In this document: positions 168 through 9,927 of the stretch, one piece after another
Layout: each line of letters starts with the position of its first letter
How positions within the stretch are numbered: position 1 is the stretch's first letter
Assembly: GCA_030949705.1 (NCBI GenBank)
Contig: JAUZSF010000018.1
Coordinates: 1 to 64,000, forward strand
Source of the DNA: Robiginitomaculum sp.
Lineage (GTDB): Bacteria; Pseudomonadota; Alphaproteobacteria; Caulobacterales; Maricaulaceae
Reading direction: 5' to 3'
Length of the DNA: 64,000 nt
The notes under the pieces: model-generated
Told to the model about the DNA's origin: nothing
The model's database searches: none
The model's input: the letters and a program-made list of their open reading frames with translations, nothing else
Position numbers and translations under genes: made by a program

Positions 168-932
168 CTAGAGAATAACCTCGACATTGCGAATAGCCGT
201 CAAAACGGCCTGCAAACGCGTGCTGGCACCCAGCTTTGCTTTGGCATTTTTAATATGGAACACCACGGTGCGCTCGGAAATGTCCAGCAATGCCGCCACC
301 TCCCGGTCTGTCTTTCCCATAGCCACCCAGGTCAGACATTCCCGCTCCCGCCCGGTAAGGGCATAGGCCTTGGGGGAAAGAATGAGGTGCTCGACCCCGC
401 CGTCCAGTGCACAGGCCCTAGAATAATACCCCGCCGCCAGACAGGATAGCAGCCATATCTGGTATTCGCTCAAAACACTGGGGTCTCCAGTCAAGCTCAC
501 CCCGGCAATGCGGTTATGCCTGCCTTTGACGGGAAAAGTAATTCCAACGATAATACCCACATCCTTGGCCTTTTCCCAGGCTTCACGCTCCCTGTCCGTA
601 ATATTGGGATTGTTGATCAGATCGGCGGTGAGAAATGGAATACCGCTGAGCTTGGTCTGGTGAATGACTGAAGAATCATAGGTGCGCCGCTCATTCCAGA
701 ACTTTGCCAAATATTCCTCAGGAAAGGTACCGAGCACCAAATGCTGCTGCCAATGCGTCGCTTGGGGCAAAATTTCGAACAGACAATGGCGATCCATACC
801 AAAGGATTTCACCACTTGGTCAAAGCTCTTCACCAGCTCTTCAACACTGGTGGCTTCAAAAAGCTTTTTAAAATACGACAGATATGACATTTCATCCGTC
901 GTCATCACACCCGGATCCACATTCATCCACAC
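168..932 (-). CDS. LuxR-family transcriptional regulator with autoinducer-binding-type domain (orphan)
   Basis: A 254-residue protein with the two-part layout of quorum-sensing LuxR regulators: an N-terminal ligand-binding-type domain (about residues 20-165) and a C-terminal GerE/LuxR helix-turn-helix (about 192-254, beginning LTGRERECL and containing SERTVVFHIKNAKAKLG). It would bind DNA and act as a transcription factor. The ligand pocket deviates from TraR/LuxR: the usual Asp-Pro pair reads DSS after RRTY, and the Trp usual near PFxW reads PFLTAD. Acyl-homoserine-lactone binding is therefore doubtful. No luxI synthase is present in the window, so it is an orphan ('solo') regulator here. 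The upstream 220 bases are AT-rich and hold two inverted repeats that could be its targets. Several ATG codons lie close together at the start; the first was kept. Confidence 0.85.
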   Translation of the reverse strand: MWMNVDPGVMTTDEMSYLSYFKKLFEATSVEELVKSFDQVVKSFGMDRHCLFEILPQATHWQQHLVLGTFPEEYLAKFWNERRTYDSSVIHQTKLSGIPFLTADLINNPNITDREREAWEKAKDVGIIVGITFPVKGRHNRIAGVSLTGDPSVLSEYQIWLLSCLAAGYYSRACALDGGVEHLILSPKAYALTGRERECLTWVAMGKTDREVAALLDISERTVVFHIKNAKAKLGASTRLQAVLTAIRNVEVIL

Positions 933-3410: not shown

Positions 3411-5588
3411 ATGTCTGCACCGCTCCTGGCATCAGTATTATTTCCGATGCCGGTCCCCGAACCTTTTGATTATGAGATCCCGGATACCCTGTCCCTGGGC
3501 CAAGGCTCCATTGTCTATGCACCTTTGGGTGCGCGTATGGTTTGCGGCGTGGTGTGGAAAGTATTTCGTGCCCAAGAAAAAGATCAGGAACGCGCCCTCA
3601 AACCCATTGCCAATGTGGTCGACACGCCGCCCTTGCCAGTTTCCTGCCTTGAATTTGTGGATTTTGTCGCGCGCTATTGCTGTCATCGCCAAGGGGTGGT
3701 GTTGCGTATGGTGCTCAGCAGTCCTGAAGCCCTAAAGCCTTCACCCGTACAAACTCTCTATGCCCCCGCCGACACTCTGCCAGAAAAAATGACTCCGGCA
3801 CGCGAAAAGGTTTTACAGGCCGCCCGGAAAGGCCATTTCAGCATCACCGAACTGGCCCGGCGCGCCCAGGTCAGCCCCGGGGTAATTACCGCCCTGGCCA
3901 AGGCTGGCGGTCTGATCGCCAAGACACAGCCCGTAGACAGGCCCTTTGCGCCGCCCAACCCCGAACGTACCGGCCTGGACCTAACCGCCTCGCAACGCAC
4001 CGCGGCCAGCGACCTGATCAGCCTGACCCAGCAAAACCGTTTTGCCCCGGCATTGCTGGATGGCGTCACCGGATCGGGAAAAACGGAAGTTTATTTTGAT
4101 GCCATTGCCGATGTGCTGTTGCGGGATCCATCGGCACAGGTGCTGGTGCTCTTGCCAGAAATTGCCCTGACCCAGGATGTATTGGCGCGCTTTGAACGCC
4201 GTTTTGGGGCACCCCCGGCCGAATGGCATTCAGAACGCACAAACATGCAGCGCCGCCGGGTTTGGCGCGAAGTGACCAATGGACGTGCCCGCATAGTGGT
4301 CGGTGCCCGTTCGGCCCTCTTCCTGCCTTTTGCCAATCTGCGCCTGATTGTCGTCGATGAAGAACATGACAGTTCCTACAAGCAGGAAGACGGGGTATTG
4401 TATCATGCGCGCGACATGGCGGTGGCCCGTGCCAAATTTGCCGATGCGGCGATTATTCTGGCCTCGGCAACCCCGTCTCTTGAGACCATGCTCAACGCCC
4501 GCTCGGGCCGTTATGCCCATGTCCGGTTGCAGGCGCGCCCCGGCGCCGCCGTTTTACCGCCCATCTCAACCATCGATCTGCGCGAACATCCGCCCGCCTC
4601 TGGCGGCTGGCTGTCGCCGCCGCTGATCGAGGCCATCCAAGAAACACTGCAACAAAAAGAGCAATGCCTGTTGTTTTTGAACCGGCGCGGCTATGCGCCC
4701 CTGACCATTTGCCGTCATTGCGGCGAACGCATGAAAGCCCCAGACAGTTCCACCTATCTGGTGGAACACCGCTATAATGGGCGGCTGGTCTGTCATTTAA
4801 CCGGCTATTCCATGCCCAAACCAAAGGCCTGTCCGGCGTGCGGCACCCCAGACAGCCTACACCCGGTTGGGCCGGGGGTAGAGCGCTTGCAAGAAGAAGT
4901 CGAGACGTTGTTCCCCGATGCATCGATTGAGATATTTTCCTCGGACAGCACCAAAAATGCCGAGGAAGTCCGCGCCCTGATTGCCCGCATGGAACAAGGT
5001 AAAATCGATATCCTGATCGGCACGCAAATGGCCGCCAAGGGGCATAATTTTCCGGGCCTGACACTGGTCGGGGTGGTGGATGCGGATATGGGGCTGCATG
5101 GAGCTGACATGCGGGCAGGCGAGCGCACCTATCAGACGCTTATGCAGGTGGCCGGGCGCGCCGGGCGGGCAAGCCGGCCAGGCCGGGCCTTGCTGCAAAC
5201 CCATCAACCGGATCATGAGGCCATACTGGCCCTATGCTCGGGCGATCGGGAAACCTTTATCAGTGCCGAGCTGGGTTTGCGCGAAGATATGGGCTTCCCC
5301 CCGTTTGGCCGCCTGGCGGCGCTGGTCTTTTCGGCCCCCACCGAGCCAGAGGCACAACGGGCGGCGCGCGATTTTGTGGCCATGGCCCCCCTGGTACAGG
5401 GGGTGGATATATGGGGGCCGACCGAGCCGCCTCTTAGCCGGGTACGGGGACGTTGGCGGCAAAGATTATTGTTGCGCGCCGAGCGCCAGATTGATCTTTC
5501 GGCCATGATCAGCGCCTGGCGCAGCCGGGTAAACCTGCCGCGCAACATACGCCTCAAAGTGGATATCGATCCGTATTCGTTTTTATGA
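3411..5588 (+). CDS. priA: Primosomal protein N' (replication restart helicase PriA) with one zinc site degraded
   Basis: 725-residue superfamily-2 3'-5' helicase that reloads the replisome at stalled forks. Visible: N-terminal 3'-DNA-binding domain, Walker A GVTGSGKT (about 218-225), DEEH box (about 316-319), LFLNRRGYAP, and helicase motifs V/VI (GTQMAAKGHNFPGLTLVG, QVAGRAGR). In E. coli PriA eight cysteines bind two zinc ions. Here the positions with identical spacing are C434, C437, A443, S446, C461, T464, C474, C477. One zinc site (434/437/474/477) is intact, while the other keeps only C461. The reading is clear in the DNA (KAPDSS where KCPDCS is usual; CHLT where CHHC is usual). The gene is divergent from fsa, as in many alphaproteobacteria. 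Confidence 0.95.
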   Translation: MSAPLLASVLFPMPVPEPFDYEIPDTLSLGQGSIVYAPLGARMVCGVVWKVFRAQEKDQERALKPIANVVDTPPLPVSCLEFVDFVARYCCHRQGVVLRMVLSSPEALKPSPVQTLYAPADTLPEKMTPAREKVLQAARKGHFSITELARRAQVSPGVITALAKAGGLIAKTQPVDRPFAPPNPERTGLDLTASQRTAASDLISLTQQNRFAPALLDGVTGSGKTEVYFDAIADVLLRDPSAQVLVLLPEIALTQDVLARFERRFGAPPAEWHSERTNMQRRRVWREVTNGRARIVVGARSALFLPFANLRLIVVDEEHDSSYKQEDGVLYHARDMAVARAKFADAAIILASATPSLETMLNARSGRYAHVRLQARPGAAVLPPISTIDLREHPPASGGWLSPPLIEAIQETLQQKEQCLLFLNRRGYAPLTICRHCGERMKAPDSSTYLVEHRYNGRLVCHLTGYSMPKPKACPACGTPDSLHPVGPGVERLQEEVETLFPDASIEIFSSDSTKNAEEVRALIARMEQGKIDILIGTQMAAKGHNFPGLTLVGVVDADMGLHGADMRAGERTYQTLMQVAGRAGRASRPGRALLQTHQPDHEAILALCSGDRETFISAELGLREDMGFPPFGRLAALVFSAPTEPEAQRAARDFVAMAPLVQGVDIWGPTEPPLSRVRGRWRQRLLLRAERQIDLSAMISAWRSRVNLPRNIRLKVDIDPYSFL

Positions 5589-8395: not shown

Positions 8396-9927
8396 ATGGA
8401 TATCCGTGCGGCGGAAGTTTCTGCAATCCTCAAAAAACAAATTAAAGGCTATGGCACCAAGGCGAAAGTCTCGGACGTTGGCCAGGTGCTGTCCGTTGGG
8501 GACGGTATTGCCCGGGTTTATGGCCTGGATGAAGTGCAAGCCGGGGAAATGGTTGAATTTCCGGGCGGCATCAAAGGCATGGCGCTGAACCTGGAAAGCG
8601 ACAATGTCGGCGTCGTGATCTTTGGGGAAGACCGCAGCATTCGCGAAGGCGATACGGTCAAACGTCTTGGCGAAATTGTGGACGTGCCGGTGGGCAAGGA
8701 ATTGCTGGGCCGTGTGGTCAACGCCCTGGGCGAGCCGATCGACGGCAAAGGCCCGATCAAAACCAAGAAACGCGCCCGTGTGGACGTCAAGGCCCCGGGC
8801 ATTATCCCCCCGGAAATCCGTGCACGAGCCAATGGCCACTGGCATCAAGGCCATTGACGCCCTGATCCCCATTGGCCGGGGTCAGCGCGAGCTGATCATT
8901 GGTGACCGCCAGACCGGCAAAACCGCCATCGCCGTTGATGCGATTTTGAACCAGAAAGAAGTCAATCAGAGCGATGATGAGAGCAAGAAGCTCTATTGCA
9001 TCTACGTGGCCATTGGCCAGAAACGCTCCACGGTGGCGCAGATTGTAAAAACCCTCGAAGAAAATGGCGCCATGGAATATTCCATCGTTGTGGCCGCCAC
9101 CGCCTCCGAGCCGGCTCCACTGCAATATCTGGCACCGTTTACCGGTTGCGCTATGGGCGAATTTTTCCGTGATAACGCCATGCACGCTTTGATCGTGTAT
9201 GATGATCTGTCCAAACAGGCCGTAGCCTATCGCCAGATGTCCTTACTTCTGCGTCGTCCGCCAGGCCGTGAAGCCTATCCCGGTGATGTGTTCTATCTGC
9301 ATTCGCGTCTTCTGGAACGCGCTGCCAAGCTCAGTGACGAGCACGGCGGTGGTTCGCTGACCGCCTTGCCGATTATTGAAACCCAGGCCAATGACGTGTC
9401 CGCCTATATCCCGACCAATGTGATTTCGATCACCGATGGTCAGATCTTTTTGGAAACCGACCTTTTCTATCAGGGCATTCGCCCGGCAGTGAATGTCGGC
9501 CTGTCGGTTAGCCGGGTGGGCTCCTCCGCACAAACCAAGATCATGAAAAAAGGTGGCCGGCCCGGTTAAGGGTGAATTGGCACAGTATCGTGAAATGGCG
9601 GCTTTTGCTAAATTTGGCTCAGACCTTGATGCTTCTACCCAGGCCATGTTGGCTCGGGGTGAACGCCTGACGGAACTTTTGAAACAGCCGCAATTCTCAC
9701 CGCTCTCCATGGCCGAAGAATCCTGCATGATTTATGCGGGGACGCGGGGCTATCTGGATGGCATCGACGTTGCTGATGTTCAGCGATATGAAGAAGAACT
9801 GCTTTTGAACCTGCATGCCGATCACAAGGATCTGTTGGACGAAATCACCAAGGAACAGGCCCTGACCGACAGTATTGAGAGCAAGCTCAAAGCCGCCCTT
9901 GAGGCCTTTACCAAGCGCTTTGCATAA
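8396..9927 (+). CDS. atpA: ATP synthase F1 subunit alpha (two apparent single-base insertions)
   Basis: Non-catalytic nucleotide-binding alpha subunit of F1. Three reading frames together give one collinear Atp[21 protein letters not shown] to VDVKAPGII in frame one; [20 protein letters not shown], Walker [28 protein letters not shown] and the alpha signature up to AQTKIMKK in frame two; [14 protein letters not shown] to the end in frame three. The first break is a run of six C near 8806-8811 (five gives [10 protein letters not shown]); the second is a run of six A near 9546-9551 (five gives [12 protein letters not shown]). The span of 1532 nt minus two is 510 codons, or 509 residues, the normal size. 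AtpA is a core respiratory subunit and its neighbours are intact, so sequencing error is the likeliest cause. Confidence 0.93.

Follow-up and report, generated by a model that had tools for sequence, protein, structure and literature searches.

The window analysed here, a stretch of 64,000 nucleotides from Robiginitomaculum sp., encodes an orthologous PriA, the replication restart helicase, in a variant that lacks the second of its two Cys4 zinc sites. This is not a local oddity but an old, stable and order-wide variant of a well-known family, and the loss of the site, referred to as site II in the following, is apparently undescribed in the literature that we searched. The protein has probably remained an active helicase: site II was lost long ago, and a conserved β-hairpin base, presumably metal-free, would have taken its place.

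The gene and its catalytic motifs lie at the following positions of the window:

3411..5588, plus strand: priA, replication restart helicase, 725 aa (NCBIfam, Pfam and AF2/Foldseek matches)
4062..4085, plus strand: Walker A / motif I GVTGSGKT, residues 218-225, intact (invariant or nearly so in A1)
4356..4367, plus strand: motif II DEEH, residues 316-319, intact (D316, E317 and H319 invariant, E318 nearly so in A1)

In the window's genome, the priA reading frame is intact and present in a single copy, and a search for a second, intact PriA found none. The protein matches curated PriA models over its full length, with 1037.7 bits for the PriA subtype model NCBIfam NF004070 (cut-off 921) and 587.5 bits for TIGR00595 (cut-off 230), and it comprises the Pfam domains PriA_3primeBD, DEAD, Helicase_C and PriA_C. 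The NF004070 cut-off was passed by exactly one of 14 control genomes, which we infer to be that of Caulobacter vibrioides. The SF2 helicase motifs I, II and VI are all intact, motif VI (residues 579-586) being likewise invariant or nearly so in A1. A Deinococcus-type pseudohelicase PriA was also considered and ruled out, as the Walker A and B motifs are both intact. We speak of a variant PriA because orthology passes every test except that for two Cys4 zinc sites: site I is complete, while site II retains one of its four cysteines.

To place this variant, we compared 279 distinct alphaproteobacterial PriA sequences (34 are partial), drawn from relatives and from genomes sampled evenly across the class. 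These fall into two clean states with almost nothing between them. All eight cysteines are present in 213 sequences (the ‘kept’ set), and Cys445, Cys448 and Cys466 (E. coli numbering) are missing in 61 (the ‘lost’ set), where the eight positions read C C [AST] [STVA] C/D [TS] C C. The ‘lost’ set consists of every PriA read from the window's order, which spans five families (f1-f5), and of the families f7, f80 and f103. The remaining five sequences belong to neither set: two are without one site II cysteine, and three are cut, ambiguous or misaligned in this region. In the PriA of L173 and L267, the first site II cysteine alone is missing (R or G for C445) and the other three are present. In the GTDB taxonomy, the family of Robiginitomaculum and Hyphobacterium shares one order with Caulobacter; the window's family includes a Hyphobacterium genome, and the Robiginitomaculum MAG L060 is assigned to the order Maricaulales at NCBI.

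The replaced and retained elements map to the cysteine-rich region as follows:

4710..4841, plus strand: cysteine-rich region (CRR), CRHCGERMKAPDSSTYLVEHRYNGRLVCHLTGYSMPKPKACPAC (translation and codon reading)
4710..4721, plus strand: first knuckle of site I, CRHC (E. coli C436, C439), retained; Cys in 61/61 ‘lost’ and 213/213 ‘kept’ PriA
4737..4748, plus strand: first knuckle of site II, APDS in place of CPxC, with C445->A443 and C448->S446 (codons GCC, AGT); A/S/T and T/S/V/A in 61/61 ‘lost’ PriA
4749..4790, plus strand: β-hairpin between the site II knuckles, the wedge element in E. coli (by homology; AF2 strands 451-453 and 458-460)
4791..4802, plus strand: second knuckle of site II, CHLT, with C463 kept as C461 and C466->T464 (codons TGT, ACC); C461 in 57/61 and T464 in 59/61 ‘lost’ PriA
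4830..4841, plus strand: second knuckle of site I, CPAC (E. coli C476, C479), retained; Cys invariant in the ‘lost’ and ‘kept’ sets
Site I codons: C436 TGC 4710; C439 TGC 4719; C476 TGT 4830; C479 TGC 4839
Site II codons: C445->Ala GCC 4737; C448->Ser AGT 4746; C463 TGT 4791; C466->Thr ACC 4800

Aligned with Klebsiella PriA (4nl4), in which all eight cysteines are present, the window protein thus reads C C A S C T C C. The first site II pair is CPxC in relatives, CPRC in the case of Klebsiella. The original prediction, made from the letters of the window, had named precisely these residues and coordinates, and both the codons and the alignment bear it out. It was equally right that the other zinc site is complete, with Cys436, Cys439, Cys476 and Cys479 all in place, and that the loss is coordinated and owes nothing to a frameshift or homopolymer effect. 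A sequencing or frameshift artefact can be discarded and a read error is very unlikely: TGT/TGC turns into GCC or ACC by no fewer than two substitutions, which applies to two of the three replacements; the reading frame continues undisturbed to either side; and independent MAGs, among them L060/L002 with 97% identity, carry the same residues.

Two further observations concern other genes of the window. The gene atpA (ATP synthase alpha; 8396-9927, plus strand) is broken into three frames, owing to one single-base difference in each of two homopolymer runs (near 8805-8810 and 9546-9553). The DNA of relatives, 85-94% identical, can be aligned over the split, and the two that were checked have one open frame. 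Most likely, this split reflects assembly or read errors in the MAG that leave priA unaffected. An open reading frame at 168-932 (minus strand) has, judged by eye, the look of a LuxR-type regulator, with an autoinducer-binding-like N-terminus and an HTH.

The loss of site II is ancient. The alignment across relatives that had been proposed for dating it reveals an order-wide loss and no close relative with eight cysteines; a recent loss in a single species or genus is ruled out, as relatives share it. It had also been anticipated that the loss might turn out to be both widespread and already described: the former holds at the level of the order, but no earlier description was found in the literature searched, with most subscription papers outside its coverage. 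At the level of the phylum, we screened 398 genomes with a strict 41-base DNA pattern for the lost form. Of the 22 genomes that matched, 18 belong to the order, which is represented by 19 genomes in this sample, and four lie outside the class, with matches at places other than PriA. By this pattern, the lost form was found in no PriA outside the class (more than 200 genomes), with the limit that its strictness made it miss the ‘lost’ sequences L035 and L159, so that other lost forms outside the class would escape it. The genome of L129 (G356) carries two divergent PriA-like genes (C4:18221-19816 and C13:382245-383861) and is perhaps a mixed bin.

Phylogenetically, the order (f1-f5) forms one clade with a support of 100/99 in the RpoC and PriA+RpoC trees. 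Families f7, f80 and f103 belong to the same larger group, where they are mixed with eight-cysteine families at poorly resolved nodes. The best trees imply two changes (RpoC and the concatenation) or three (PriA without the CRR), and the AU test does not reject a single origin (p of 0.12 for RpoC, 0.18 for PriA and 0.19 for PriA+RpoC). The loss dates back at least to the order's ancestor, and f7, f80 and f103 came by it through the same event or through parallel ones. For the PriA proteins of the order, vertical descent is the simplest reading, because their tree and that of RpoC agree well enough.

The pattern of loss is also informative about the architecture of the CRR. We take the zinc pairing to be that of Klebsiella PriA (4NL4), with 445/448/463/466 and 436/439/476/479 forming the two Cys4 sites. 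In family f7 (L033, L038, L055), site II has no cysteine left: its four positions read S, S, D and T, with an Asp at Cys463, the one cysteine that remains elsewhere. With f7 included, the loss quartet is exactly 445/448/463/466, while 436/439/476/479 never vary; this fits the known pairing. The quartet brackets the stretch 448-463, which by our own reading is the wedge hairpin: in E. coli PriA, this β-hairpin is essential for unwinding and has been proposed to act as a strand-separating wedge (PMC10175261). Reviews call both zinc fingers of PriA essential (PMC7290993), and E. coli Cys->Gly mutants are described as helicase-deficient with their ATPase kept (Zavitz and Marians 1993, as cited in PMC10175261). 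The original prediction had named a dispensable metal centre as one of two possible readings, and for this lineage it is supported as far as four-cysteine coordination at site II is concerned, which is absent from 61 persisting PriA proteins.

Judged by its conservation, the replaced site II is not decaying. P444, H453, H462, G465 and P471 do not vary across the 61 ‘lost’ sequences, T464, S467, E452 and R458 are found in 59 each, and C461 in 57. S467 and P471 have become fixed in the clade that lost site II, as they occur in just 49 and 169, respectively, of the 213 ‘kept’ sequences. The mean entropy of the hairpin is 0.86 in the ‘lost’ versus 1.39 in the ‘kept’ set (ratio 0.62, against 0.73 for the whole helicase part), a drop for which the narrower spread of the ‘lost’ set accounts in part. 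The AF2 model of the window protein (pLDDT 90.1) keeps the hairpin, and its strand pattern in the CRR is nearly the same as that of an eight-cysteine relative, although both runs used one alignment of mostly eight-cysteine proteins, so that like folds are partly built in. In Foldseek, this predicted fold matches 8fak (E 1.5e-61) and 4nl4 (4.9e-60).

Where E. coli has the site II ligands (445, 448, 463 and 466), the ‘lost’ form has [AST]-P-x-[STVA] ... C-H-x-[TS]-G, and residues that follow the hairpin were newly fixed; site I keeps its ligands. In the scenario that we favor, site II would bind no zinc, and the base of the wedge would instead be held by side-chain packing and hydrogen bonds; the hairpin keeps its place and would still act as a strand-separating wedge. 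Restart may then run from PriA to DnaB with DciA, in place of PriB-DnaT-DnaC. By analogy with E. coli, a working wedge without zinc would not be guaranteed, because the Cys->Gly mutants are helicase-deficient.

These same mutants, deficient as helicases yet active as ATPases in the 1993 work cited in PMC10175261, could also speak for a hairpin without a wedge role, in a PriA that binds forks as a scaffold but unwinds them weakly or not at all, and whose zinc site went once unwinding was unneeded. The helicase-defective E. coli strains priA300 and priA301 grow like the wild type (PMC3325207), and Deinococcus PriA is a pseudohelicase (PMC4504706). We nevertheless regard such a scaffold as rather unlikely, since motifs I, II and VI show neither damage nor variation in the window's lineage, unlike in Deinococcus, and since the tight conservation of hairpin and knuckle residues in the ‘lost’ set is not expected of decay. 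A further suggestion builds on the metal-free wedge base and goes beyond mere tolerance of the loss: its signature (P444, E452, R458, C461, T464-G465, S467-M468, P471) could form a lineage-specific docking or gating surface for the handover from PriA to DnaB with DciA, to which we give a small chance.

Changed contacts with the partners PriB and DnaT, which the original prediction had offered as a possible cause, are a very improbable explanation. It is true that these partners are essentially missing in the lineage, along with PriC: among 61 genomes of the order, neither PriB nor PriC was found in any, and DnaT gave one weak match, with the E. coli control found each time. This lone DnaT-domain match, in a close relative (G017:C12:42833-43036), scores 26.1 bits at a cut-off of 25; the other 60 genomes have none. 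The gene set of a PriA-PriB-DnaT primosome is accordingly not found in this lineage. DciA (PF05258) is present in 57 of the 61 genomes, the window's genome among them, as well as in the Caulobacter control. However, E. coli PriB docks on Asp438, Ser481, Thr482 and His483 of PriA (PMC10175261), which adjoin the retained cysteines of site I, and DnaT binds a surface of HD2/CTD (PMC10175261; PMC13377028). Moreover, eight-cysteine alphaproteobacteria also mostly have A/T/S/K/G at the position of Asp438 (window 436). The change of partners can thus be separated from the loss of zinc, because the PriB contacts lie on the retained site and differ from those of E. coli in eight-cysteine alphaproteobacteria as well.

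It is just as improbable that site II still holds a metal by means of alternative ligands, either C461 together with H453 or H462, or Asp/Ser residues: C461 and both histidines stay conserved across the ‘lost’ set, but the two histidines are equally invariant in eight-cysteine proteins and hence conserved for another reason, family f7 carries Asp at 461, and one of the four site II cysteines is left.

Current models of how PriA recognizes forks, unwinds them and assembles the primosome give the CRR a central place. A large clade, to which the model organism Caulobacter very probably belongs, has persisted for a long time without one of the two zinc sites and without PriB, PriC and DnaT. This clade represents a natural experiment on the division of labour between the zinc sites, and it counsels caution against extending the E. 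coli model across bacteria.

Among known systems, the PriA proteins of E. coli and Klebsiella (4NL4, 6DGD, 8FAK) are the best sequence and fold matches of the window protein, with the same domain order, helicase motifs, site I knuckles and CRR position; they differ in their eight cysteines and two zinc sites, and the window protein is without the conserved PriB-docking residues D438, T482 and H483. It passes the cut-off of NCBIfam NF004070 (PRK05580.2-2), a sequence-based equivalog model that shows nothing on the zinc site. The Deinococcus-Thermus pseudohelicase is an earlier case in which a whole lineage has lost PriA features that are conserved elsewhere (PMC4504706), but there the ATPase motifs are degenerate, whereas the window's lineage keeps these motifs and lacks a structural zinc site. 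Outside the family, the U-box and other fingers that lost their zinc ligands are likewise metal-free with the fold kept (PMC4999995). Finally, in the zinc and non-zinc forms of ribosomal protein S4, a zinc site was also replaced by metal-free residues in a retained fold; according to that work (PMC3087516), the S4 forms spread by transfer, whereas PriA lost one of two sites, apparently by vertical descent.
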